This document shows, piece after piece, positions 40,205 through 64,000 of a DNA stretch of 64,000 nucleotides (position 1 is its first letter; every line of letters starts with the position of its first letter). Under the pieces are notes generated by a model. That model saw only the letters and a program-made list of their open reading frames with translations, was not told where the DNA came from and did no database searches. The stretch is from the NCBI GenBank assembly GCA_964019415.1, contig OZ025874.1, forward strand, positions 8,928,409 through 8,992,408, in the 5' to 3' direction. A program made the translations under genes and the position numbers. The stretch comes from Ianthella basta (Eukaryota > Porifera > Demospongiae > Verongiida > Ianthellidae).

Positions 40205-40370
40205 CAAGTACAAATCACTGCACCAACTGCCTTAGTTACCAGAGTTATAAAAGATCTTGTTAACTTGCAATAACAGCTTACTTAACATGGTTTAACAGAG
40301 TTGTAAGTTACTAAATACTCAACACTGTTAACCCAAGTAATGAATGTATAATCATATTCATAATATCAAT

Positions 40371-43249: not shown

Positions 43250-43496
43250 CTGGGGAAACAGTTGCGTATCTGTATGGAACATAGATAGTATCTGACCATT
43301 GTAGATTTGTTGGAATCCACCAGGACAAAGAAGAAGGAAAGTTTGACCATTCCTACTTGGTACGTTCTGTGACCCATCAGTGACAATGTTCATTTTATTT
43401 GATGACTTGTATAATCATAATAGCAGAGGCAGACAATGGGCACAGTGAAGTGCAAATACCGACAGCCAGTGGTGCTACTCAATACTTTTACTGTAT
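43250..43496 (-). pseudogene. Receptor remnant (TM5-TM6 region)
   Basis: Minus-strand words GTGCCCATTGTCTGCCTCTG (VPIVCLC, TM5), AACATTGTCACTGATGGGTC (NIVTDG) and TTTGTCCTGGTGG (FVLGG, TM6) survive among indels. The same remnant occurs inverted at 63510-63710, including shared non-coding flanks, so a block containing an already dead fragment was copied. Confidence 0.75.
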
Positions 43497-44440
43497 ATAT
43501 AACAAACATATATATGTCATCACTGGTCATAGCCAAAACGGCCTTGACCTCAGCAGAGATACTTCACAACAGAATGGGAGTGATACAGTTGGTTTGTGCA
43601 GATAGTACAGGGCTAAGACTTGCATGGGACATAGACAGACACGATAGGCAATATAGACAATATATACAAATTAACACAGACAAATTAAGTTGTCAGAATT
43701 GACAAGGTTGGGTTGAGGGTGTGAGTGGTGCAGGGCTTCAATCAATGAGTGGGGACAAGCAAAGTGATCTAGCTTGCATGGCTTTATAGATGTAGAGGGC
43801 AGTTTCTTGTACTAGGGCAGGGTGGGAGGTGCACATCAGGAATGTAAATTGTTCTTTAGGGGTCAGAAGGGGGGAATTTTGACTTAGAGTGACTGCTCGT
43901 TGCATGAGTGGGTATCTGAGGTTGCAATAGTAGGAGCAGTTGAATAGGAAGTGGATTTCATCTTCAACCACTAGATTGTTGCAGATTTCACACAGGCGTT
44001 CTTCAACCAGCTTGGGAGGGTTACAGTGACGGCCACTTTCGATGTGGAGCTTGTGGTCTGATAGTCGAAATTTAGTTAATGCACTGCGGGCCTTGGGGTT
44101 GGTGATCAGAGTTAGATATGGCTCACACACTGTGACGTCATGTTTGATCAACCTGTATGCTCTTAACTTGCTCCCCCCCGATGGGGTTGCCCCTTGGGGG
44201 CAGCTTAGGTCGAACTGTAGAGATTGGATATGTTGATCATGGAGGCGTGTAAGTACTTCAGCTTTGTCTGGCTGGGTCAAGTTGGGGTTAAATCCAAGGT
44301 GTGCAAGTTGGTTCCTGATGAGGAAAGCCCATGATTTGTGTCCAGAAGTAGCTAAGTTTATTGAGGTTTGTAGAGCAAGTGAGGTGAGACAGTTTGGGTC
44401 ATTGGAGATAACGTGGTAGTAGTAGTTTAGGGATGTTACC
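43497..44440 (-). mobile_element. 5'-truncated LINE, about 944 bp, with part of its reverse-transcriptase C-terminus
   Basis: A 244-codon minus-strand frame (44472-43738) is mostly element-derived. It contains FRLSDHKLHIESGRH, ERLCEICNNLVVEDEIHF and LFNCSYY, the zinc-knuckle-like tail (SDHxLxIExGR, CxxC, EDExHFLFxC) typical of many LINE proteins. The paralogous site at 63462-63474 has no insert. GTAT is repeated at both edges (43493-43496, 44441-44444). No poly-A tail is visible. It cannot move on its own, as the catalytic RT domain is absent. Confidence 0.75.
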
Positions 44441-44540: not shown

Positions 44541-45032
44541 CTAGCTGAATGCCCGCCCTTCAGGTGGGTTCCCAGGATAACGTTTGAAATTTGAGCGTTT
44601 AAACCAATCAGAACCGTCCATTTAATTGGGAGTATTCCGTAGACTCGTTCCTTAAAACTCCGTACGTACAGAATTTACTTATGTTAATCAATTTCATTTA
44701 AAGGAGTCCAGCGGCGAAGGCACTAACCACCATAGGTCACCCCTCGTATTGCCGTAATATACTCTTCCAAGTTTGGCGAAGATTGGTGAAATATTGAAGG
44801 AGGAGTTCGTGCACAACCAAACACGATCTTTCCCTTATCTCTTAGATATGGCGGCGACCGTAAAAGTGGCAAGAACTCGGACGGAACGACATTAAACCAA
44901 ATTTCGGCTGGCGAGGTTACTCACAGTCCCCCTCTTCGTCATCCTACCAAGTTTCGTGACGTTTCGTCCAGAATTGAAGGAGATTATCCCGAACAACGAA
45001 AATGTGCGTTACCTTTATTATAATAAGATAGA
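44541..45032 (-). mobile_element. Helitron-like non-autonomous element, 492 bp, precise insertion
   Basis: Read on minus it begins TCTATCTTATTATAATAAAG and ends in a hairpin (CCCACC / GGCGGG) followed by CATTCAG and CTAG. The outside bases are A and T. The paralogous copy at 63341-63380 reads CATTCGAA then TAATTATAAT with no insert and no duplicated bases, the expected empty site for a Helitron. The 5' end resembles that of the element at 25266, so both belong to one family or related families. No coding capacity. Confidence 0.82.
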
Positions 45033-45220
45033 TTTGATTGATAATGAAATGTAGCTTAGCTGTGTTCACATATGAACGTATATTTAAGTTAAAGCACGCA
45101 TTAAAGAACCAACATGGTATGCATGACTGGTATGTGTATATGGCAGCTAGTACAGTAGACATTTATATTTACTGCAATTGCACACAAATCCCCTCTTCCT
45201 TCTCAACAATGGCAGTAGTG

Positions 45221-46177
45221 CTAGACTGTGCTTGAGGTCCCAATTGAGTCTTTTACCACTTTGGTCAACCTGCCACACGCTACCTTTGTGAACATCTTCT
45301 TGACCTGTTCCTGAACTGGCTTCAAATATGCAATGATGATGATGGGAGTTGGGAGGAGGAAGACAGCAGGAAAGCTGTAGCCAATGTACACTCCAGGTCC
45401 TGCTGCATAAATTCCAAGTAGGACTGGGAGTATCTGACCAATGACATTGATGGAACCACCCAGGACTAGGAAGAGGGCAAACTTAGCCATTCCCTTCCTG
45501 TACTTCAACCCGTCAGTGACAACACTCTTTCTGACATAGCAGAGGCAGACAATGGGCACAGTGATACTGATAGCTAACGGTATGAACCCTCCAGATGTGA
45601 TCCATGTGGCTTGGAAGATGAAACGAGCTTGAAGGATGATAGTATTGTTGTTGTCTGGGAAACAACCCACACCATCAACAAACTGCACTTCGTACACATA
45701 AGGAAGAAGAACATAGAGGCTTAAGAACCATGGCACAATCCAGAGGATGGTGATGATAAGTATAGCATATCGCTTGCTGATGGTCTTCTTCCCAAACCTC
45801 ACAACTGCCAAGACAAAAAGTGAGAAAGCTGCCAAGCTCCACAATCTTGTTACTGCTCCTCCCCCATACAGCCATAGATATGCTCGGCAGAGGTACAGTG
45901 GGGGTCTGGGGTGTTCTGGTCCCACTGCTACAAGGACAGCAGAGGTACCCACTGAGAGTAGCATAGCCATTGCTACTACCAGCCCTGCCAGCAGAAGGTT
46001 GATGAGGAAGAGACGAAGTGGTCGGGGGATGGAGTGGGCCATTGCAATTGGCACAATCAACAATCCATTGATCACTCCACCTGCAGTTGTGATCACAACC
46101 ACCAGGATGGCGTAGGCCATGAAGCCAGGACTGTCCAAGGAAGCAGCACTCTCCTGAGACAGGGTAGTGGTGTTCAT
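45221..46177 (-). CDS. Seven-transmembrane receptor, copy 11 (left gene of a head-to-head inverted pair)
   Basis: 318 codons from the ATG at 46177, N-terminus [21 protein letters not shown]1 TTAGGVINGLLIVPIAMAHS, TM3 [20 protein letters not shown], base VVRFGKK. Loop GVGCFPDNNNTIILQARFIFQATW, TM6 GGSINVIGQILPVLL, TM7 [16 protein letters not shown]. Its 5' flank is the mirror image of that of copy 12 at 48628-49602, so the two share one palindromic upstream region and are transcribed away from each other. The tail ends GTSSTV. Confidence 0.88.
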   Translation of the reverse strand: MNTTTLSQESAASLDSPGFMAYAILVVVITTAGGVINGLLIVPIAMAHSIPRPLRLFLINLLLAGLVVAMAMLLSVGTSAVLVAVGPEHPRPPLYLCRAYLWLYGGGAVTRLWSLAAFSLFVLAVVRFGKKTISKRYAILIITILWIVPWFLSLYVLLPYVYEVQFVDGVGCFPDNNNTIILQARFIFQATWITSGGFIPLAISITVPIVCLCYVRKSVVTDGLKYRKGMAKFALFLVLGGSINVIGQILPVLLGIYAAGPGVYIGYSFPAVFLLPTPIIIIAYLKPVQEQVKKMFTKVACGRLTKVVKDSIGTSSTV

Positions 46178-48627
46178 TCTTGTCTGTGCAGGACCACAAA
46201 GTGAGTGCAAAGATGTTTGCTGGGGTTCTTCAGTCTGGAGTCACTTAGTGTATGTACAGTGTACTATACCCATCTCAATGAAACTGTATAATTTCCTTCC
46301 TAACTAGTGATGTCATTCACCATATATGGTATGTATATGGGCAGTGCAATAGCTTCTATTGTACACATTTGCCTGGTGCTTCCTCAGCATGACCTCTGCC
46401 ATATACAAACTGTACAAATGTACTGTAGGTTTCCACGCTAGGGACACAATGTTTTGGGAATCACTTCAGCCTGGAGCAAGATGAAGGACTGCCCATTGCT
46501 CCTATCTTGGCCTGCATGCTGCAAGATGAATTAACGCTTCGCTTTGCACATACTCCCAGACATCAATCAAACAATGGACATTCAGCTGCCTATATGCACA
46601 CCGTGCATGAATGTAGACTTCAGGAAGCTACGTAGGTGTACATGTGTGCTTCTGTGTGTGCATGCATACTCAAATCATGCACATTGCTAACTTCTGTATG
46701 CTACAGAATGAGTAGAAGAACTAGTACTAGAATGCAAAACTAGAATGCAGCAGTCACTACATGCATGCAAGCTCATGAATTAAACTATATTATACTGCTG
46801 AATGTATATTTGTGTGTGCATGTAGTAGAATGAGAATATACTGTGAGGTATATAATTATATGCACAGTTGTATGTTGATAGTACTGTTCTAGCTATGGTG
46901 TACGTGAGGCATGCAAGCCATTTTACAGGCATGAGAACAGAATGGAGGGCATTTTGTGTACAGTAAGCTGATAGTGAAGAGGCATGACAGCAGATGGACC
47001 CCAATTACTTTGGATGGTTGTAAGGTAGCTATATTGCTACTCAGGGGTTATTTGAAGCAGCCCCAGTGAGGGCAGCAAAGAACATCTGAAACCCATAGAT
47101 GTCTTCTCTAAACATTTACTGACCTGCATGCAGGGACCTGCACATGCAGTACAACTATGGCTGTATATATACTTGAGAAGCAATATAGCTACCTTACAAC
47201 CATTACGAAGTATAAGTGGACTCCATCCGCTGTCATACCCTTTCACTATCAGCTTACTGTACACAAAATGCCCTCCATTCTTTTCTCATGCCTGTAAATG
47301 GCTTCCATGCCTCACGTACACCATAGCTGGAACAGTACTATCAATATACAACTATGCATATAATTATATACCTCACAGTATATTTTCATTCTACTACATG
47401 CACACACAAATATACATGCAGCAGTATAATATAGTTTAATTCATGAGCTTGCATGCATGTAGTGACTGCTGCATTCTAGTTTTGCATTCTAGTACTAGTT
47501 CTTCTATTCTGTAGCATACAGAAGTCAGCAATGTGCATGATTTGAGTATGCATGCACACACAGAAGCACACATGTACACCTACGTAGCTTCCTGAAGTCT
47601 ACATTCATGCACGGTGTGCATATAGGCAGCTGAATGTCGATTGTTTGATTGATGCCTGGGAGTATGTGCAAAGCGAAGTGTTAATTCACCTTGCAGCATG
47701 CAAGCCAAGATAGGAGCAATGGGCAGTCCTTCATCTTGCTCCAGGGTGAAGGGATTTCCATAACATTATTTTTCTAGCCTAAAACCTATCATACAGTACA
47801 TTCGTACAGTTTGTATATGGCATCATGAATATCAATATTGATATTATGAATATGATTATACTTTCATTACTTGCGTTAACAGTGTTGAGTATTTAGTCTG
47901 TTAACTTACAGCTCTGTTAAACCATGTTAAGTAAGCTGTTATTGCAAGTTAACAAGATCTTTTATAACTCTGGTAACTAAGGCAGTTGGTGCAGTGAATG
48001 ACATATCAGACAGCACAGCTGACTAGATTCCACTAGGATACATTGCTATGTGCAATATATACAGTATACGTACAGCATGTATGAACTGTCCATAAATCAC
48101 CATTCTGAATATTATATGTAGTAGGTTCATACTGTACACACACATACGTATACTGGGTTACTCGAGGTACCACGTTGTAGAGTATTTGCCACCTAGCAGA
48201 TATACGGGGCTATTGATTCTTGAGTGGACACATGGCAGTGCAATAATAATAAGGAATTGAGTTGTTTCAATCACAAAGTTATTCGTCAGTTACAGTTTTA
48301 GTAACTCCCTTACTCATGGTATATATGTGAGTACTGTTTGCACATGTGGTAAGTGCGATAACATACACATGCAAATTGGAAGGTATGGGAAAATGTTATA
48401 GTGTTGTTAGGTCATGCTGAGGAAGCACCAGGCAAATGTGTACAATAGAAGCTATTGCACTGCCCATATACAGTACCATATATGGTGAATGACATCACTA
48501 GTTAGGAAGGAAATTATACAGTTTCATTGAGATGGGTATAGTATACTGTACATACACTAAGTGACTCCAGACTGAAGAACCCCAGCAAACATCTTTGCAC
48601 TCACTTTGTGGCCCTGCACAGACAAGA
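46178..48627. repeat. Large imperfect palindrome between receptors 11 and 12
   Basis: From each receptor start inward, the sequence of one side reads as the inverse of the other. Examples are TTTGCTGGGGTTCTTCAGTC / GACTGAAGAACCCCAGCAAA, GGTGCTTCCTCAGCATGACC and its inverse, and AGCTACGTAGG / CCTACGTAGCT. The central unpaired stretch is about 47041-47175. The right arm has about 590 bp extra (47822-48411). Arms plus genes form an inverted duplication of about 4.4 kb. Both promoters lie within it. Confidence 0.85.
47822..48411 (-). mobile_element. Insertion in the right arm of the palindrome
   Basis: The left arm runs AGCATGACC directly into TCTGCCATATAC. In the right arm (read inverted) about 590 bp lie between these words. 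The insert contains the 165-bp dispersed repeat (47828-48000, inverse of 40205-40372). It must postdate the inverted duplication, or have been lost from the left arm. Confidence 0.65.
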
Positions 48628-53770: not shown

Positions 53771-54733
53771 ATGAACAACACTACGCTGCCTCAGGAGAGT
53801 GCTGCCTCCTTGGACAGTCCTGTCTACATGGCCTATGCCATCCTGCTGACTGTGATCATAGTTGTAGCTGGAGTGATGAACGGACTACTGATTGTACCAA
53901 TCACATTGGCCCAGTCCATTCCTCGACCACTTCAAATCTTTCTTAGCAACCTTCTGCTGACAGGGCTGGTAGTAGCACTGGCTTTAGTCCTCTCATTGAA
54001 TACCTCTGTTGTGCTAGTGGCTTTGGGACCAGAACACCCCAGACCCCCACTGTACCTCTGCCGAGCATATCTATGGCTTTATGCTGGAGGAGCTATGGCA
54101 AGATTATGGTACTTGGCAGCATTCTCACTTTCTGTCCTGGCAGTGGTGAGGTTTGGGAAGACGACTATCAGCAAGTGCTCTGCTATACTTATCATCACCA
54201 CCCTCTGGATTGTGCCATGGTTCGTAAGCCTCTATGTTCTCCTTCCTTATGTGTATGAAGTACAGTATGTTGATGGTGTGGGTTGTTTCCCAGACAACAA
54301 CAATACCATCATCCTTCCAGCTCGTTATGCCTTCCTTGCTACATGGATCACATCTGGAGGGTTCATACCATTAGCCATCAGTATCACTGTGCCCATTGTC
54401 TGCCTCTGCTATGTCAGAAAGAGTATTGTCACTGAAGGGTTGCGGCAGAGGAAAGGAATGGCTAAGTTTGCCTTCTTCCTAGTCCTGGGTGGTTCCATCA
54501 ATGTCATTGGTCAGATACTCCCGGTCCTACTTGGAATTTATGCAGCAGGACCCGGAGTGTATCTCGGTTACGGCTTTCCTGCTATCTCCCTCCTCCCAAC
54601 TCCCATCATTACCATAATCTTCTTGAAACCAGTTCAAGGGCAGATCAAATCAATGTTTGCAATGCTGACACGTGGCAGGTTAGCAAAGGCTGACGAGCTT
54701 TCAAGGTTGACCATGAGCACGGAGTCAGACTGA
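53771..54733 (+). CDS. Seven-transmembrane receptor, copy 14
   Basis: 320 codons, [23 protein letters not shown] (V for G before TM1). TM2 departs at FLSNLLLTGLVVALALVLSLNTSVVL, adding Ser/Thr/Asn. TM3 ends VVRFGKTTISK, with T replacing the second Lys of FGKK. Loop CFPDNNNTIILPARYAFLATW; intracellular loop 3 RKSIVTEGLRQRKGMAKFAFF; TM7 PTPIITIIFLKPVQGQ, with the motif Tyr replaced by Phe. The tail (RLTMSTESD) is that of copy 9. The weakened TM3 and TM7 motifs could alter G-protein coupling; that is inference. Confidence 0.87.
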   Translation: MNNTTLPQESAASLDSPVYMAYAILLTVIIVVAGVMNGLLIVPITLAQSIPRPLQIFLSNLLLTGLVVALALVLSLNTSVVLVALGPEHPRPPLYLCRAYLWLYAGGAMARLWYLAAFSLSVLAVVRFGKTTISKCSAILIITTLWIVPWFVSLYVLLPYVYEVQYVDGVGCFPDNNNTIILPARYAFLATWITSGGFIPLAISITVPIVCLCYVRKSIVTEGLRQRKGMAKFAFFLVLGGSINVIGQILPVLLGIYAAGPGVYLGYGFPAISLLPTPIITIIFLKPVQGQIKSMFAMLTRGRLAKADELSRLTMSTESD

Positions 54734-55591
54734 CATGATGTGTTCAGTATGATATGTACAGTAGCAAGCAAATGTTAACTACTGTGTGTACCTATACTCT
54801 AACTCACCTAGTTATTGATCATGCATACAGCGAATTCACATAATTTTATAGGTTGAGTTGTGTACCAGTTGTAATCAAAGATGTAATCATTATACCATAC
54901 ACATGTACACAAGTAAGTAATCTTACACAAGGTAATCTGTAAAAATTATACATGCAGTTTATTCAGTGCCACATTACATATTTGTAATAATCAATCATTG
55001 CCCTGTTTCAGAAGACTGATTCTAGGCTGTCTCCCAAAACATTCCAACAAGTACTGTACGTATGCACTGTGTCAAACTGCAATTCTGTGCTGTACTCCAT
55101 TAATACATACGTAGTATACAGCAATGCGTAATACATATATCACTATATTGTTCATGTACATATATAGTATAGTTTTGTACTGAACCACAGTGGTATACTC
55201 ATGTGTGTGAGTGCGCATGTGTGGTATACAGCATGCACAAATTGCACTGCAGGAAATTGTTACAATACTTTGTAGTATTATTATTTAATTAGCTACAATG
55301 CCCATTGATGTTTCACAATACCCTCTGAGACTCATCATCAGTATATACAGGGTCATGCCCCACAACACATAATTAAGGGAAAGCACGGGGAAATGAATGC
55401 TATAGATGCTATAGCATCAGCCTATATAGTACGATCACCATATATGGGGAAGTGCATTGACTAACCACTTCAGCTGGACAGGAAACAATTATACAGTTTC
55501 ACTGAGATGGGTATGGTACAGACATTTTAGACTGAAGAGCCCCAGCAAACATCTTTACACTCACTTTGATTGTGGACCTGCACAGACAAGT
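54734..55591. other. Spacer between receptors 14 and 15
   Basis: Starts with 3' flank shared with copy 9 (compare 54940-55060 with 40120-40210: GTTTCAGAAGACTGATT type) and ends with 5' flank shared with copies 11 and 12 (GAAGAGCCCCAGCAAACATC). Nothing else seen. Confidence 0.55.
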
Positions 55592-56569
55592 ATGAACAAC
55601 ACTACCCTGCCTCAGGAGAGTGCTGCTTCCTTGGACAGTCCTGGTTTCTTGGCCTATGCCATCCTGGTGGTTGTGATAATGCTTGTAGCTGGAGTGATAA
55701 ATGGGCTGTTGATTGTGCCAATTGCAATGGCCCACTCTATTCCTCGACCACTTCGTCTCTTCCTCATCAACCTTCTGCTGGCAGGGCTGGTAGTGGCATT
55801 TAGTGTGATGCTCTCAATGGGTACCTCAGCTGTCCTTGTAGCAATGACCTCAAACCACCCTACACCTCCGCTGTACCTATGCAGAGTATACCTGTGGCTA
55901 TATGCTGGAGGAGCGGTAACAAGGCAGTGGAGCCTGGCAGCATTCTCACTGTCTGTCCTGGCAGTTGTGCAGTTTGGGAAGAAGACCATCAGCAAGTGCT
56001 CTGCTGCAGTCATCATCATCACCCTCTGGATTGTGCCATGGATATTAAGCATCTACATTCTCCTTCCTTATGTGTACGAAAAGCAGCTTATTGATGGTGT
56101 AGGTTGTTTCCCAGACAACAATAATGTCATCATCATTCAAGCTCGTTTTAGTTTCTTTGCCTTGTGGCTCACAATTGGAGGCCTCACACCCCTAACAATC
56201 AGTATCACTGGGCCTATTGTCTGCCTCTGTTATTACATCAGCAAGGGCATTACCACTGACGGTTCAAAGTACCGTAAAGGAATGGCCAAATTCTCTCTCT
56301 TCCTTGTCCTAGGGTGTTTCATCAATGTCATAGGCATGATTCTCCCAGCCATACTGGGATTCTATGCAGAAGGACTGGTAGTCTATATTGGCTACAGTGT
56401 TCCTGTTGTCTCTCTCCTCCCCACTCCTATTATCATTATAGCCTACCTGAAACCAGCTCAAGAGCAAGTGAAGAAGATGCTCGTAGTAGTCACTCACGGC
56501 ATAGCAGCAAAAGTTTGTAGGAGGACATCAGAGACTATTGGCACTGATGATATCAGCAAGAGGACCTGA
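55592..56569 (+). CDS. Seven-transmembrane receptor, copy 15
   Basis: 325 codons from the conserved MNNTTLPQ. An ATG 45 codons upstream is in frame, but the intervening [10 protein letters not shown]-type sequence probably lies before a splice acceptor. The TM3 arginine present in every other intact copy is Gln here (VVQFGKK), and TM3 also has TRQWS for TRLWS. The loop is KQLIDGVGCFPDNNN. The TM5 half (FALWLTIGGLTPLTISITG) and intracellular loop 3 (YYISKGITTDGSKYRKGM) differ from all copies except 16. The tail GIAAKVCRRTSETIGTDD is shared with copy 16. Confidence 0.88.
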   Translation: MNNTTLPQESAASLDSPGFLAYAILVVVIMLVAGVINGLLIVPIAMAHSIPRPLRLFLINLLLAGLVVAFSVMLSMGTSAVLVAMTSNHPTPPLYLCRVYLWLYAGGAVTRQWSLAAFSLSVLAVVQFGKKTISKCSAAVIIITLWIVPWILSIYILLPYVYEKQLIDGVGCFPDNNNVIIIQARFSFFALWLTIGGLTPLTISITGPIVCLCYYISKGITTDGSKYRKGMAKFSLFLVLGCFINVIGMILPAILGFYAEGLVVYIGYSVPVVSLLPTPIIIIAYLKPAQEQVKKMLVVVTHGIAAKVCRRTSETIGTDDISKRT

Positions 56570-56663
56570 TCAATTTCAGCAAAATGATGATACAGTATAA
56601 ATGCTTACAATCTTTAATTTATATACTTGGTCTTGTTCACTTACACATTTACATTCATTTCTC

Positions 56664-57024
56664 TAATTATATTCCTATATGTAGCATTATCAAATAATAA
56701 CTGAGTCAAAGTAATTAATAGGCAGTTCACAGCACCACCTATGGAATGTCTGAATAGTAATTAATTGTCAATTAAACATTGGGCATCTGATTTTGACCGC
56801 TGAAGTTCACCGGGGAATATGGCATCCCCTGCAAACATTGGGCATCCGGTGCCCCAGTGAACTTCACCGGGGAATATGGCATCCCCTGCAAACATTGGGC
56901 ATCTGGTGCCCCAATGAACCTCACCGGGGAATACGGCATCCCCTGCAGCATAAAGACCTAATGGTACAATTAACCTGCGTTTTGCGTAAACTGCGTAAAT
57001 TTTAGTATAATCTTATTATTATAA
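56664..57024. mobile_element. Insertion with three 57-bp minisatellite units
   Basis: The duplicate interval after copy 16 passes from CATTCATTGCTCT to ATAGATTTAGCTAACC with no such DNA. The insert carries three units of about 57 bp (from 56774; GGGCATC...CACCGGGGAATA), then ACCTAATGGTACAATTAA. The same array occurs inverted at 57897-58135. Confidence 0.65.
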
Positions 57025-57632
57025 TTAAATACAAATTTAGCTAACCATTTGGCCAGTAACATGGCTACTAACCACATTACACATTCACTATGAAACATAT
57101 GTTCACATGTATCTCATTGATATTGTAATCCAGTGCTGATACTTGTACTATATATGCGATCGTGGCTCACTGGCTATGTACAAGAGGCCGGATTGCATGA
57201 ATGAGTTCGAAAGACCTGCCTATAGCTGCATAGGAATATTGTGCAATCAAGTTGTACAAATCACTCATCCACAGCTAGCTGACTGTATACGCCCAGCCTA
57301 GCTGCATCGCTCATCTCATGACCTTTGACCTTCCACGCTGAGTCACTGTACTGATGAGAATACCCTCCTATACAATGAAGGCAGTGATCAGCATATGCAC
57401 ACAAGGTGCACCAAGGGATGCAGTCCCTTAGCACCAAGAACAGCTAGTCCTTTACATCGAGGCGTGGTAACTGTATATAGATTGCCTGCAGCTGTCAGCA
57501 TTGTAATACTCACAAAGGGGAATGCAGATTACCCAGTGTGACTTGTACTGGTGGTGTTTTAAATACTGTAAAGAAAGATACTGTAATTGGCCATACACAA
57601 CACTGATATAAATTTCTAATGTATGCAATACC

Positions 57633-58402
57633 CACACTGTCACACTGCTACTTTAGTGTGACGGTGACACCAGTATCCGCACTGTCATCTCATTTCTGAT
57701 AGATTAAGAGACTTTGAAGTAATTCATAACCAAAATTAAAGATGGCAATAGTTTATTTGGAATCCTATACAAGCTATCTAAGTACATAGCTACCCAGGAC
57801 ACAGCTAAGCCTGATGGTATATATGTTGTGTACAGTGGGAAAACTTCCTCAAACTAAGTATGCCGTTTGCGCAGTTTAATTGTACCATTAGGTCTTTATG
57901 TTGCAGGGGATGCCGTATTCCCTGGTAAAGTTCACTGGGGCACCAGATGCCCAATGTTTGCAGGGGATGCCATATTCCCCGGTGAAGTTCACTGGGACAC
58001 CAGATGCTCAATGTTTGTAGGGGATGCCGTATTCCCCGGTGTAGTTCACTGGTGCACCAGATGCCCAATGTTTGCAGAGGATGCCGTATTCCCTGATGAA
58101 GTTAACTGGGGCACCAAATGTTCAATTTGTTGCAGGGGTCTGGATGCCATCACCCACAAACTATCCTGCTAGTTGGTAGGCTGTGTACTGCATATACTCA
58201 AATCCTACAAGTAGTGTACCATGTCTGTAGTGAAATGTACCTTTGAGTGCTTACTCTCTTACAAACTATTCCCATAATGGTATCCTGTGTACTGCATGGT
58301 TGGAGTGAACATCACACTGCAAAAGGGTGCATGTGCTCATTGTGGCAACCAATTCACACCAATTTTGGGTGTGATCGTCACTCCCTATTTCTAACAGTGC
58401 AG
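57633..58402. mobile_element. Second insertion with four 57-bp minisatellite units, inverted
   Basis: Absent from the duplicate interval (60590-60600). Four 57-bp units run from about 57897 to 58135, inverse to the first array and preceded by the inverse of its ACCTAATGGTACAATTAA edge. CACTGT at the left and ACAGTG at the right edge may be short inverted ends. A period of 57 keeps frames open (19-residue repeat), but nothing suggests a gene. Confidence 0.65.
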
Positions 58403-58680
58403 CAGCAGAAAGTTATGCCTCTCTGCACACACAATCACAAGACAGCTAGCCCCAGCCTCCAGGAAATTGAATTCAATAGATGACACCATCTGCTGTAACT
58501 ATTTAGTAGTTATGCAAACTTTGGATTGCATGCAGCTCTTTCGTGCATGTGCTAAAGTATTCAATGAACAGGAAATATGTAGTAAAAAGAAAATAGTGTC
58601 TATACATTCTTGGTACTGTACAAACGTGTACAATCAAATTGAATAAGAAACACATGCCAATGATCCAATGTTTGAACAGC

Positions 58681-58759
58681 TGTATTACCACCTAACACTA
58701 TCTACCATAGCATGTTAAATTTTAAAATGCTATGGTAGATAGTGTTAGGTGGTAATACA
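58681..58759. repeat. Perfect 33-bp inverted repeat (hairpin)
   Basis: TGTATTACCACCTAACACTA starts an arm repeated exactly inverted after a 13-bp AT-only-plus-G loop. The duplicate interval at about 60868-60902 keeps only one arm. Confidence 0.9.
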
Positions 58760-58912
58760 CCTACCATAATAATGTATAAATTTACAAGAGGAGCAGTGAA
58801 TGGGATAGCTAGCAAGTGAATAGCTTCTACACTGTGTGAATACAGAAAGAACTAGTACTTCACTAGCTGGTGCTTCACTTTTCAGATCGATTGTGGTCCT
58901 GCACAGACAAGT

Positions 58913-59890
58913 ATGAACAACACTACACTGCCTCCGGAGAGTGCTGCATCCTTGGACAGTCCTGGCTTCATGGCCTACGCCATCTTGGTGGTTGTGATCA
59001 CACTGGTGGCTGGAGTGATGAATGGACTGTTGATTGTGCCAATTGCAATGGCCCACTCCATCCCCCGACCACTTCGTCTCTTTCTCATCAACCTTCTGCT
59101 GGCTGGGCTGGTAGTAGCAGTGGCTGTGATGCTCTCAATGGGTACCTCTGCTGTCCTTGTAGTAGTGGGACCAGAACACCCCAGACCCCCACTGTACCTC
59201 TGCCGAGCATATTTATGGCTGTATGGGGGAGGAGCGGTAACAAGATTGTGGAGCCTGGCAGCATTCTCACTGTCTGTCCTGGCAGTGGTGAGGTTTGGGA
59301 AGAAGACCATCAGCAAGTGCTCTGCTGCACTTATCATCTCCATCCTCTGGGTTGTGCCATGGTTTATAAGCCTCTATGTTCTCCTTCCTTATGTGTACGA
59401 AGGGCAGTTTGTTGATGGTGTGGGTTGTTTCCCAGACAACAGCAATGTCATCATCATTCAAGCTCGCTTTAGCTTCTTTGCCTTGTGGCTCACAATTGGA
59501 GGCCTCACACCCCTAACAATCAGTATCACTGTGCCTATTGTCTGTCTCTGTTATTACATCAGCAAGAGCATTACCACTGACGGTTCAAAGTACCGTAAAG
59601 GAATGGCCAAATTCTCTCTCTTCCTTGTCCTAGGGTGTTTCATCAATGTCATAGGCATGATTCTCCCAGCCACACTGGAATTCTATGCAGAAGGACTGGT
59701 AGTCTATATTGGCTACAGTGTTCCTGTTGTCTCCCTCCTCCCCACTCCTATTATCATTATAGCCTTCTTGAAGCCAGTTCAAGAGCAAGTGAAAAAGATG
59801 CTCGCCGTAGTCACTCGCGGCATAGCAGCAAAAATTTGTAGGAGGACATCAGAGACTATTGGCACTGATGATATCAGCAAGAGGGCCTGA
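58913..59890 (+). CDS. Seven-transmembrane receptor, copy 16 (recombinant of copies 15 and 17)
   Basis: 325 codons, [19 protein letters not shown]. The 5' flank (58785-58912) and first half follow copy 17: shared ACAAGAGGAGCAGTGAATGG flank, RAYLWLY, VVRFGKK, QFVDGVGCFPDN. From about 59447 to the stop, and on through the 3' flank, it follows copy 15 almost base for base (NVIIIQARFSFFALW, YYISKSITTDG, GIAAKICRRTSETIGTDDIS). Unlike copy 15 it has Arg in VVRFGKK. TM7 is [16 protein letters not shown] with Phe for Tyr. It is full length with no frameshift, so it is probably expressed as a chimeric receptor. Confidence 0.88.
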   Translation: MNNTTLPPESAASLDSPGFMAYAILVVVITLVAGVMNGLLIVPIAMAHSIPRPLRLFLINLLLAGLVVAVAVMLSMGTSAVLVVVGPEHPRPPLYLCRAYLWLYGGGAVTRLWSLAAFSLSVLAVVRFGKKTISKCSAALIISILWVVPWFISLYVLLPYVYEGQFVDGVGCFPDNSNVIIIQARFSFFALWLTIGGLTPLTISITVPIVCLCYYISKSITTDGSKYRKGMAKFSLFLVLGCFINVIGMILPATLEFYAEGLVVYIGYSVPVVSLLPTPIIIIAFLKPVQEQVKKMLAVVTRGIAAKICRRTSETIGTDDISKRA

Positions 59891-60902
59891 TCAATTTCAG
59901 CAAAATGATGATACAGTATAAATGCTTACAATCCTTAATTTATATACTTGTTCTTTTTCGCTTACACATTTACATTCATTGCTCTTAAATATAGATTTAG
60001 CTAACCATTTGGCCAGTAACATGGCTACTAACCACATTACACATTCACTATGAAACATATGTTCACATGTATCTCATTGATATTGTAATCCAGTGCTGAT
60101 ACTTGTACTATATATGCGATCGTGGCTCACTGGTTATGTACAAGAGGCCGGATTGCATGAATGAGTTCGAAAGACCTGCCTATAGCTGCATAGGAATATT
60201 GTGCAATCAAGTTGTACAAATCACTCATCCACAGCTAGCTGACTGTATACGCCCAGCCTAGCTGCATCGCTCATCTCATGACCTTTGACCTTCCACGCTG
60301 AGTCACTGTACTGATGAGAATACCCTCCTATACAATGAAGGCAGTGATCAGCATATGCACACAAGGTGCACCAAGGGATGCAGTCCCTTAGCACCAAGAA
60401 CAGCTAGTCCTTTACATCGAGGCGTGGTAACTGTATATAGATTGCCTGCAGCTGTCAGCATTGTAATACTCACAAAGGGGAATGCAGATTACCCAGTGTA
60501 ACTTGTACTGGTGGTGTTTTAAATACTGTAAAGAAAGATACTGTAATTGGCTATAGACAACACTTATATAAATTTCTAATGTATGCAATACCCAGCACCA
60601 GAGAGTTATGCCTCTCTGCACACACAATCACAAGACAGCTAGCCCCAGCCTCCAGGAAATTGAATTCAATAGATGACACCATCTGCTGTAACTATTTAGT
60701 AGTTATGCAAACTTTGGGTTGCATGCAGCTGTTTCGTGCTTGTGCTAAAGTATTCAATGAACAGGAAATATGTATAGTGTCAATACATTTTTGATACTGT
60801 ACAAATGTGTACAGTCAAATTGAAGAAACACATGCCAATGATTCAATGTTTGGACAGCTGTGAACGTGCTATGGTAGACAGTGTTAGGTTGGTAATACAC
60901 CT
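59891..60902. other. Duplicate of the copy 15 downstream interval
   Basis: Collinear with 56570-58759 (identical for long stretches such as 60000-60590 against 57035-57630) but lacking both minisatellite insertions and one arm of the hairpin. No gene seen. Confidence 0.8.
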
Positions 60903-60904
60903 AC

Positions 60905-60984
60905 CATACACTGCACCAACTGCCTTAGTTACCAGAGTTGTAAAAGATCTTGCTAACTTACAATAACAGCTTGCGTAACATGGT
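60905..60984 (+). repeat. Dispersed repeat, truncated copy 3
   Basis: The first 80 bp of the 165-bp repeat (CACTGCACCAACTGCCTTAG ... AACATGGTT) end abruptly at the (TCAA)n tail of the LINE that follows. Confidence 0.7.
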
Positions 60985-61610
60985 TCAATCAATCAATCAA
61001 TCAATCAGTACAGATGTTTCTCCAATACTGGAGGTCATCCTTACATATCTTATACAAGCTAAATGACAGTTAGAGGATGATAATTATTATTATAAGCATA
61101 GATACTAAGTGACTTCATGGTTATTTGAAATTGTCAGTCCATCTCATTCTGGTTCTTCCTCTAGGCCTTTTCCCCTCCATCTCGCCTTCAAAAATCATTC
61201 TGGTTGTTCTTTCCCTACTCATCTCTTCCATTCTAGCCTTCCACTTCTCCTGCCTGGTCTTTATCATATCTAAAACACTCACTCGGCGTAGCTTCTCCCT
61301 GATATCTGCATTCTTTATCCTATCCAGTCTACTTACTCCTTCGATCGATCTGCCTCAAGACATTCACTTGAGTGGCTTGTACCCTAGATTGTAGATGCTT
61401 TGACAGGCACCACGTCTCACAACCACACAGTGGTGTGGGGATCATTGTCGCATTCACCACTTTCAATTTTGTGCTCCTGCTCAGTTCCTTCCTCTTCAAT
61501 ACGGTTTCGTTCATGCTCCCAATCACTCGTGTTGCACTCCCAATCCTTGCCTTCACTTCTTTCTCCTGAGACAGAAGAAGCGCCAGCAGTAGACTGTCCA
61601 TGACATTGTT
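60985..61610 (-). mobile_element. 5'-truncated LINE fragment with (TTGA)n tail
   Basis: On minus, 61601-61329 reads RIGSATRVIGSM, then RSTKLKVVNATMIPTPLCG and CETWCLSKHLQ, the TKLxxYxxxxxPxLxYGCETW segment after the RT domain of many LINEs. After a frameshift near 61340 it goes on KNADIREKLRRVS ... KRPRGRTRMRWTDNF to a stop near 61120. The 3' end is a short (TTGA)n run (61006-60985). The catalytic RT part is missing. Confidence 0.75.
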
Positions 61611-61619
61611 ACGGCTGCG

Positions 61620-62214
61620 CCTGTGGGGTGGAATACATACAGAACATGTACAGTATAGTTAGGATATGCATGTTATGAACACCATGCAGTACATAGATGA
61701 TATGAAACACCTTTAGTCCCCGCTGTGAGTCAGTTTAGCTGCTTCTCCAATCCCACAGTGCCTTCGCCTAACACTGCTAGCTGCATGCTAAGGCTGCTTG
61801 AAATCCGGTCACATAATATAATATTACACTTCTTGTACTGAAGCAAAAGCAATGTTAACCATACATGTACCTGGCATCACGGTTGACTGGAGACTATGTG
61901 CACTGCTAGGAGTATACGATGACCACTGAATGAGTGTACATCCGTAACGGAAGTGACTTAATACAACGATATAATATAAATACAGTGCAAGTAACAATAT
62001 ATTGCAGTACTCTAATATAATTAATAATATTTAATTCACAGATACTACAGAGGATACTGCAGACAAGTACTATTATAATATTATATACATTCACAAGAGG
62101 AGCAGTGAATGGCATAGATAGCAAGTGAATAGCTTCTCCACTGTGTGATCCAGAAAGAACTTCACTAGCTGGTGCTTCACTTTCCAGATCAATTGTGGTC
62201 CTGCACAGACAAGT
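61620..62214. other. Spacer upstream of receptor 17
   Basis: AT-rich. From about 62093 it matches the copy 16 promoter flank (CACAAGAGGAGCAGTGAATG, CTTCACTAGCTGGTGCTTCA). Nothing else seen. Confidence 0.6.
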
Positions 62215-63188
62215 ATGAACACCACTACCCTGCCTCAGGAGAGTGCTGCCTCCTTGGACAGTCCTGGCTTCATGGCCTATGCCATCCTGGTGGTTGTGAT
62301 CACACTGGTAGCTGGAGTGATTAATGGACTGTTGATTGTGCCAATTGCAATGGCCCACTCCATTCCTCGACCACTTCGTCTCTTTCTCATCAACCTTCTG
62401 CTGGCAGGGCTGGTAGTAGCAATGGCTTTGGTCCTCTCAATGGGCACTTCTACGGTGCTTGTAGCAGTGGGACCAGAACACCCCAGACCCCCACTGTACC
62501 TCTTTCGAGCATATTTATGGCTATATGCAGGAGGAGCGGTAACAAGATTGTGGAGCTTGGCAGCTTTCTCACTTTTTGTCTTGGCAGTTGTGAGGTTTGG
62601 GAAGAAATTCATCAGCAAGTGCTCTGCTACACTTATCATCTCCATCCTCTGGATTGTGCCATGGTTCGTAAGCCTCTATGTTCTCCTTCCTTATGTGTAC
62701 GAAGTACAGTTTGTTGATGGTGTGGGTTGTTTCCCAGACAACAACAATACCATCATCCTTCAAGCTCGTTATGCCTTCCTAGCCATATGGATCACATCTG
62801 GAGGGTTCTACCATTAGCCATCAGTATCACTGTGCCCATTGTCTGCCTCTGCTATGTCAGAAAGAGTGTTGTCACTGACGGGTTGAAGTACAGGAAGGGA
62901 ATAGCTAAGTTTGCCCTCTTCCTAGTCCTGGGTGGTTCCATCAATGTCATTGGTCAGATACTCCCAGTCCTTCTTGGATACTATGCAACAGGACCTGGAG
63001 TGTACATTGGCAGCAGCATTTTTGCTGTCTCTCTCCTCCCAACTCCCATCATCATCATTGCCTATTTGAAACCAGTTCAGGAACAGGTCAAGAAGACGTT
63101 CACGAAGGAAGTGTGTGGCAGGTTGACCAAAGTGGCAAAAGACTCAATTGGGACCTCAAGCACAGATTACCACTACTGGCATTCTTGA
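62215..63188 (+). pseudogene. Seven-transmembrane receptor, copy 17, one frameshift and lost disulphide cysteine
   Basis: Homology covers the whole receptor, but one base is missing near 62808: GGAGGGTTCTACC where others read GGAGGGTTCATACC. The frame is lost at the start of TM5 and the product would be about 200 residues. The second part continues in another frame from PLAISITVPIV to a stop at 63188. TM3 has YLFRAYLW, with the otherwise invariant Cys replaced by Phe, and FGKKT became FGKKF. This supports real decay rather than a sequencing slip. The 5' flank and first half are those of copy 16. Confidence 0.82.
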
Positions 63189-63289
63189 GAAGGAAGAGGG
63201 AATTTGTGTGCAGTTGCAGTAAATATAAATGTCTACTGTACTAGCTGCCACATACACATACCAGTCATGCATACTATGTTGTTACTTTA

Positions 63290-63710
63290 ATGTGAGTGCT
63301 TTAACTTAAATATATGTTCATATATGAACGCAGCTAAGCTACATTTCATTATCATTCGAATAATTATAATAAATCAATTATGCATGTAATCCAATGCTGA
63401 TCTTGCCTATAATAATTATTAATCATGATTGAAGTGAGGGATATGCATATTTTGTACTATAGTACATACAGTAAAGGTATTGAGTAGCACCACTGGCTGT
63501 CGGTATCTGCACTTCACTGTGCCCATTGTCTGCCTCTGCTATTATGATTATACAAGTCATCAAATAAAATGAACATTGTCACTGATGGGTCACAGAACGT
63601 ACCAAGTAGGAATGGTCAAACTTTCATTCTTCTTTGTCCTGGGCGATCCAACAAATCTACAATGGTCAGACACTATCTATGTTCCATACAGATACACAAC
63701 TGCGAAAAAT
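63290..63710 (+). pseudogene. Receptor remnant in a block inversely duplicated at 43250-45075
   Basis: 63290-63480 is non-coding sequence matching 44441-45075 without its Helitron. 63510-63710 carries the receptor words CTGTGCCCATTGTCTGCCTC (TM5) and ACATTGTCACTGATGGGTC (loop 3) in broken frames. This block supplies the empty sites for both the LINE and the Helitron insertions at 43.5-45.0 kb. Confidence 0.78.
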
Positions 63711-64000
63711 CCTGTGTGGCTAGGTACTGACATACGTATCTATCACCGAACTTCACTAGCCAAAACTTTGAATAAAACCAAACTTTTCAACAACTATACA
63801 GTTGTCATCATCAGTGGCGAATACAAAACAAAGGATAAGCTCGCTTTAAGTACACTAAAAAAGGCGGGAAAAGGTATGAAATCAAAATGGAGTGACAGCT
63901 AATGAAATATATGAATAAATTAACAGTTGAAATTAAGGGGGGACAGAGTTAGTGGTAACACTTGCACCAGAGACTAATCTTAGAATCCGTGCACATTAGA
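63711..64000. other. End of window, nothing recognised
   Basis: An open frame continues to 63902, with a Lys-rich end (KTKDKLALSTLKKAGKG) of unknown meaning. No other feature. Confidence 0.4.

Follow-up and report, generated by a model that had tools for sequence, protein, structure and literature searches.

The DNA analysed, a stretch of 64,000 nucleotides from the sponge Ianthella basta (the window, whose numbering is used throughout), contains 17 single-frame receptor genes of about 320 amino acids each, on both strands. Two of the 17, g04 and gene 17 (g17), have no full open frame and were aligned at the DNA level; in the alignment of coding sequences (CDS) the starts of g04, g08 and g13 are imprecise, no ATG being present there, and genes 15 to 17 are unaffected. 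All four proteins scanned (g11, g12, g15 and g16 of the 17 genes) matched Pfam family 7tm_1, g12 alone passing the cut-off of 30.5 bits (34.9 bits) and g11, g15 and g16 remaining below it; the gene 16 product scored 18.8 bits (E 0.0012), under the curated cut-off. A profile built from 16 array proteins retrieved three PDB sequences, those of the 5-HT2A, 5-HT1E and beta-1 adrenergic receptors (E 4e-4 to 8e-3). From these sequence matches, the family is taken here as class-A-like. The excerpted text of PMC4302439 describes sponge-specific rhodopsin-like groups, AqRho-A to -E, in Amphimedon; by that description, not by sequence, they are similar to the array in being a lineage-specific expansion of divergent class-A-like receptors. 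In a search for relatives of gene 16, the viral contigs searched gave no match, and none of 36 pattern matches in genome contigs was confirmed. Neither this array nor its hybrid gene was described in the titles or abstract openings returned by a literature search of partial coverage. The window also contains a TRAF/MATH gene, at 606-1445, which is consistent with an animal genome.

The features of gene 16 and its neighbours are collected in Table 1. Judged solely by eye, the minus strand of the insertion in spacer 16-17 reads like the end of a decayed LINE, and one piece of the insertion compared with Pfam gave no match above the cut-off. In spacer 15-16, inverted arms of the 57-bp tandem repeat (56774-56979 and 57870-58138) flank block b; they are absent from spacer 16-17.

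Table 1. Gene 16, the genes on either side of it and the sequences between them (positions in the window)
Feature	Position	Strand	Description
Gene 15	55592..56569	+	Open ORF, 325-aa receptor; source of the gene 16 back half
Spacer 15-16	56570..58912	+	Colinear with spacer 16-17 save for insertions (blocks a-d and 5' flank)
Extra stretch, spacer 15-16	56672..57024		57-bp tandem repeat, inverted relative to that at 57901-58138
Block b	57025..57637		7/613 mismatches with 59985-60598; least diverged section of the duplicated unit
Extra stretch, spacer 15-16	57638..58399		Carries the second inverted 57-bp repeat arm
Palindrome, spacer 15-16	58678..58762		42-nt arms, 95% complementary; only partly present in spacer 16-17
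5' flank of gene 16, 17-type	58769..58912	+	10/137 mismatches with 62077-62214; gene 17 the sole partner in -147..-41
Gene 16	58913-59890		Open frame, 325 aa
Gene 16 front half	58913..59443	+	First four predicted helices; array-type mosaic front, not 17-specific
Exchange interval, gene 16	59423..59446	+	20 identical bases common to genes 15 and 17
Gene 16 back half, 15-type	59447..59890	+	From divergence, switch test and back tree
3' flank of gene 16	59891..60908	+	Colinear with parts of spacer 15-16
Insertion, spacer 16-17	60909..62074		About 1.17 kb; initial 77-84 bases also present at 40216-40292 and 47917-48000
5' flank of gene 17	62077..62214	+	Same type as gene 16 5' flank
Gene 17	62215..63189	+	Frame broken near 62808, seen by eye against paralogues; ORF ends at 62817

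Gene 16 is a hybrid of neighbouring genes. At 209 informative sites gene 15 differs from gene 17 and gene 16 matches one of the two; gap sites and sites at which gene 16 matches neither (9 in the alignment list) were left out of the test. Up to 59443 (CDS 531), gene 16 was 17-like at 50 of 71 sites and 15-like at the other 21, and from 59447 (CDS 535) onward it was 15-like at 131 of 138. The best single breakpoint had a log-likelihood ratio of 51.7, a value reached in none of 2000 permutations (maximum 9.2). The original prediction of a sharp switch of paralogue near 59440, with 59447 as its coordinate, was thus correct, the breakpoint lying between 59443 and 59447. The last 17-like sites of gene 16 are CDS 510 and 531, the first 15-like site is CDS 535, and CDS 511-530 are identical in genes 15 and 17, which places the exchange within 59423-59446. 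Twelve identical tracts of at least 15 bases are common to the coding sequences of genes 15 and 17; the longest measures 32 bases, and the one at the joint 20. A test of the longest mismatch-free run, applied to 136 pairs of genes, was significant for 14, some of which may be conserved stretches since the test permutes site order and ignores uneven conservation. The 15/16 and 16/17 pairs were not among the 14, the former because scattered differences interrupt the 15/16 tract.

The two halves of gene 16 differ in how precisely they point to a relative. In the tree of the back half, genes 15 and 16 were joined at 100/100 and a 16+17 grouping was rejected (AU test, p 2e-66). For the front half, identity to gene 16 was 92% for g17 and g11, 91% for g12, 90% for g13, 88% for g07 and 87% for both g08 and g15, and the nearest paralogue varied window by window. 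The front tree grouped gene 16 with g11 at a weak support of 51/74, and in the AU test both 16+17 (p 0.177) and 15+16 (p 0.316) escaped rejection. The claim that the front coding half matches gene 17 in particular was therefore not confirmed, g11, g12 and g13 being about equally close. Gene 17 was accordingly rejected as a coding parent to be named from the front of gene 16, g11 being equal in identity and the front tree excluding neither grouping. The run-length test also detected two tracts of identity with other members of the array: 46 polymorphic sites identical in gene 16 and g07 (CDS 459-529, abutting the switch; global p 0.002) and 37 identical in gene 16 and g09 (CDS 369-430; p 0.022). 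Coding similarity alone cannot name the partner of a hybrid in such arrays; here it is the 5' flank alone that indicates gene 17.

Upstream of gene 16, the 147 bases at 58766-58912 were 88% identical, counting gaps, to 62075-62214 of gene 17, which was the sole partner among the 17 genes in the -800..-41 region at E 1e-8; the two promoter flanks match, as had been proposed. The last 20-60 bases before the gene 16 start are common to further array genes. A leader immediately upstream of the ATG, some 20-24 bases long (about 58890-58912), had a match in the corresponding position in 10 of 15 further genes tested (g04 omitted), and such a leader is often the border of flank homology. Downstream of gene 16 the sole partner was gene 15. 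The original prediction of more than 1 kb of matching 3' flank was accurate as to total length, about 1 kb, but not as to continuity: the match is fragmented into 102, 613, 269 and 41 aligned bases, because spacer 15-16 carries extra stretches. Apart from their insertions, spacers 15-16 and 16-17 match block by block in the same order, as copies of one ancestral spacer, with 6/102 mismatches in block a, 7/613 in b, 12/269 in c, 1/41 in d and 10/137 in the 5' flank, so that the proposed duplication of the interval between the genes is upheld. Outside the three genes, in 54734-55591 and 63190-64000, similarity to the spacers was limited to stretches of 22-24 bases.

Divergence was not equal across the duplicated unit. 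It amounted to 4.0% in the back coding sequence, 5.9, 1.1, 4.5 and 2.4% in blocks a, b, c and d, 7.3% in the 5' flank and 7.9% in the front coding sequence, that is, 96 mismatches in 2140 positions over the seven blocks, or about 4.5% on average (block edges overlap by a few bases). This heterogeneity was significant for the seven blocks (chi-square, p 6e-6) and for the five non-coding ones (p 4.5e-4), so the unit as a whole is not of equal age. Synonymous difference was higher between the fronts of genes 16 and 17 (0.171, 23.5/137) than between the backs of genes 15 and 16 (0.075, 8/107; Fisher p 0.023). Block b was less diverged than blocks a, c and d together (7/613 versus 19/412, p 8e-4). 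Compared with the same three blocks, neither the synonymous difference of the back half (8/107, p 0.23) nor the 5' flank (p 0.27) departed significantly, and the parts of the unit are compatible with one age once block b and the front coding sequence are set aside. Block b had no Rfam match at the gathering score (54700-64000 searched), its ATG-initiated ORFs were only 41-48 amino acids long, and its folding was unremarkable (z -0.40, 6 of 20 shuffles being equally or more stable); none of these ORF, RNA-family and folding checks explains its low divergence.

Mosaic structure is not confined to gene 16. A copying model preferred a mosaic of other genes over a single donor in 17 of 17 genes. 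The summed mosaic score was 1658, compared with 475-799 in simulations without recombination on the tree of the array (6 of 10 simulated alignments were used), and 16 of the 17 genes, all except g08, exceeded their own simulated maximum; as these simulations also score sizeably, only the excess counts and the lists of donors are not to be taken literally. In three further genes the flanks have different partners. The partner of g11 is g12 for the 5' flank (98.9% over 179 bp) and g17 for the 3' flank; the 3' flank of g12 has g07 as partner, plus a shorter piece shared with g08; and in g17 the partner is gene 16 for the 5' flank and g11, inverted, for the coding sequence and 3' flank. This last match, with 45032-46199, reaches 92.4% over 1171 bp. 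With their differing 5' and 3' partners, g11, g12 and g17 look like further recombinants, and the array seems to keep exchanging pieces among its genes. Several minor features were observed in the same regions. The layout of g11, which involves 45221-46177, 48409-48587 and 63190-63702, resembles a second recombinant; a receptor-like fragment lies 3' of gene 17 (63514-63643, with 43259-43499), and the region around it, 63463-63702, recurs inverted past g11; and between g11 and g12 lies an inverted repeat whose arms, each some 650 bp long, share 92.7% identity (46397-47043 and 47174-47822).

Unequal crossing-over is the most economical account of the gene order, of both flanks and of the two homologous spacers. 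The order is the one it predicts, A, B-front/A-back, B, in which the back half is certain and B is recognized by the 5' flank rather than by the coding front. We consider it likely that gene 16 arose by such an event, a tandem duplication running from inside gene 15 to inside gene 17, with later conversion in the fronts. Chromatids would have been misaligned at the paralogues ancestral to genes 15 and 17, and an exchange, presumably meiotic, would have occurred inside the short identical stretch that encodes the predicted loop between the fourth and fifth helices. The interval made of the 15-back, the spacer and the 17-front would thereby have been duplicated, giving the order 15, hybrid, 17. 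Afterwards, gene conversion in short tracts, with other genes of the array as donors, may have rewritten front parts of gene 16, gene 17 or both, which would explain why the front is not 17-specific and carries the g07 and g09 tracts. Insertions would then have diverged between the two spacers and the reading frame of gene 17 would have been broken, in an order that is itself conjectural. The resulting gene has an open frame for a 325-amino-acid receptor, putatively class-A-like; its 5' flank is of the 17 type and its back half of the 15 type. Clean unequal crossing-over between genes 15 and 17 had been proposed; the layout stands, and the mechanism is the likeliest one. "Clean" is not supported, in view of the uneven divergence, the front shared with other paralogues and the g07 tract: a single clean event between the present-day genes 15 and 17 is not enough. 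The earlier observation was largely right; its interpretation was right in kind but went too far with that word and with the choice of gene 17 as the source of the front coding half. An identity of 85% is low for efficient homologous exchange; this is the front identity of genes 15 and 17 today, and it counts against the preferred account, as do the existence of shared tracts longer than the one at the joint, the uneven divergence, a front coding half no nearer to gene 17 than to g11, and the absence of the 15/16 and 16/17 pairs from the results of the run-length test.

Gene conversion could in principle produce a similar hybrid at constant gene number, if the back half and 3' flank of an older, full gene 16 had been overwritten by gene 15. 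Such an event would accord with the mosaic structure of many array genes and with the divergence values, the smallest of which (1.1%) falls in the 3' flank and the larger ones (7.3-7.9%) at the 5' end, as for a tract laid over an older duplication. However, it requires a tract of more than 1 kb; block a, beside the coding region, has diverged by 5.9%, a value at odds with a simple recent tract; and the spacer homology does not stop after the tract but continues to the 5' flanks of genes 16 and 17. Crossing-over is preferred to conversion mainly because both spacers align in order as a tandem duplication predicts, and we regard conversion as an unlikely origin. Two further explanations are less probable still. 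Gene 16 might be the original form among three whole tandem copies, the coding sequence and 3' flank of gene 17 having been replaced by a g11-like copy and the 5' flank and front of gene 15 by a g11/g12-like copy. The inverted match of gene 17 and about 0.5 kb of its 3' flank with g11, the weak resemblance of the gene 15 5' flank to g11 and g12 (71-77%) and to g02 (71%), and a gene 16 front equidistant from gene 17 and g11 all agree with this proposal, which is nevertheless improbable, as it needs two large replacements and nothing longer than 22-24 bases matches the spacers in 54734-55591 or 63190-64000. An assembly artefact, the least probable explanation considered, would have placed two haplotypes one behind the other, linked through a paralogous stretch, gene 16 then combining the 17-front and 15-back of different haplotypes. 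Such an error yields an identical layout, and what separates the units, insertions and a mean difference of about 4.5%, can also separate alleles in very diverse animals; yet the front synonymous difference of 0.17 is high for alleles, the gene 16 frame is open, and g11, g12 and g17, too, have 5' and 3' flanks with unlike partners.

The formation of hybrids by unequal crossing-over is a known mechanism and a well-known route of receptor-gene diversification. Red/green opsin hybrid genes of primates arise in this way, and there too tandem class A receptors have recombined into front/back hybrids; the opsins differ in having introns and a known function, the receptors of the array being putative and single-frame. 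The closest parallel in layout is the anti-Lepore duplication of the globin genes, in the order delta, beta/delta hybrid, beta. It shares with gene 16 the order A, B-front/A-back, B, a crossover in the coding region and flanks as predicted, but there two human genes are the only parents, whereas the gene 16 array has many members and signs of further conversion. Chimeric beta/delta globin genes and a lemur hybrid formed by unequal crossing-over are mentioned in the excerpted text of PMC4390247, in which the term anti-Lepore does not occur. Tandem chemoreceptor clusters (GR, IR, OR, V1R) arise by unequal crossover according to the part of PMC11526382 consulted; their tandem layout is like that of the array, in which, however, the 7tm_1 match is weak and a chemosensory role only putative. 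Gene 16 is a readable example of the making of hybrids in tandem receptor arrays, as the exchange can be placed within about 24 bases and the spacers are still recognisable. It is conceivable, though doubtful, that the whole array diversifies its receptors by recombination, reshuffling promoters, front halves and back halves as cassettes, with exchanges concentrated at the conserved leader of about 20 bases before the start and at identical stretches such as the helix 4/5 loop; these would be candidate hotspots, gene 16 one product and g11, g12 and g17 others.

The structure model of the gene 16 product was all-helical, with nine helical pieces and a mean pLDDT of 49, and served solely to locate the loop. 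In this low-confidence model the joint falls at residue 177/178, between helices 135-166 and 179-219. The invariant cysteine 172 lies a few residues ahead of the joint. A junction in the loop between helices 4 and 5 could plausibly leave a hybrid foldable. In class A receptors the ligand pocket and the G-protein face are each built from both halves of the protein. Given this architecture and the position of the joint in the modelled loop, the division of gene 16 into a ligand-facing and a G-protein-facing half was rejected, and the proposal that the new receptor joins one such half to the other was not sustained. The product probably acts as an ordinary G-protein-coupled receptor, one whose ligand preference or coupling has changed. 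Synonymous differences exceeded non-synonymous ones both in the 16/17 front (Fisher p 9e-6) and in the 15/16 back (p 0.05); the sequence has therefore been under constraint, some of it possibly older than the hybrid.
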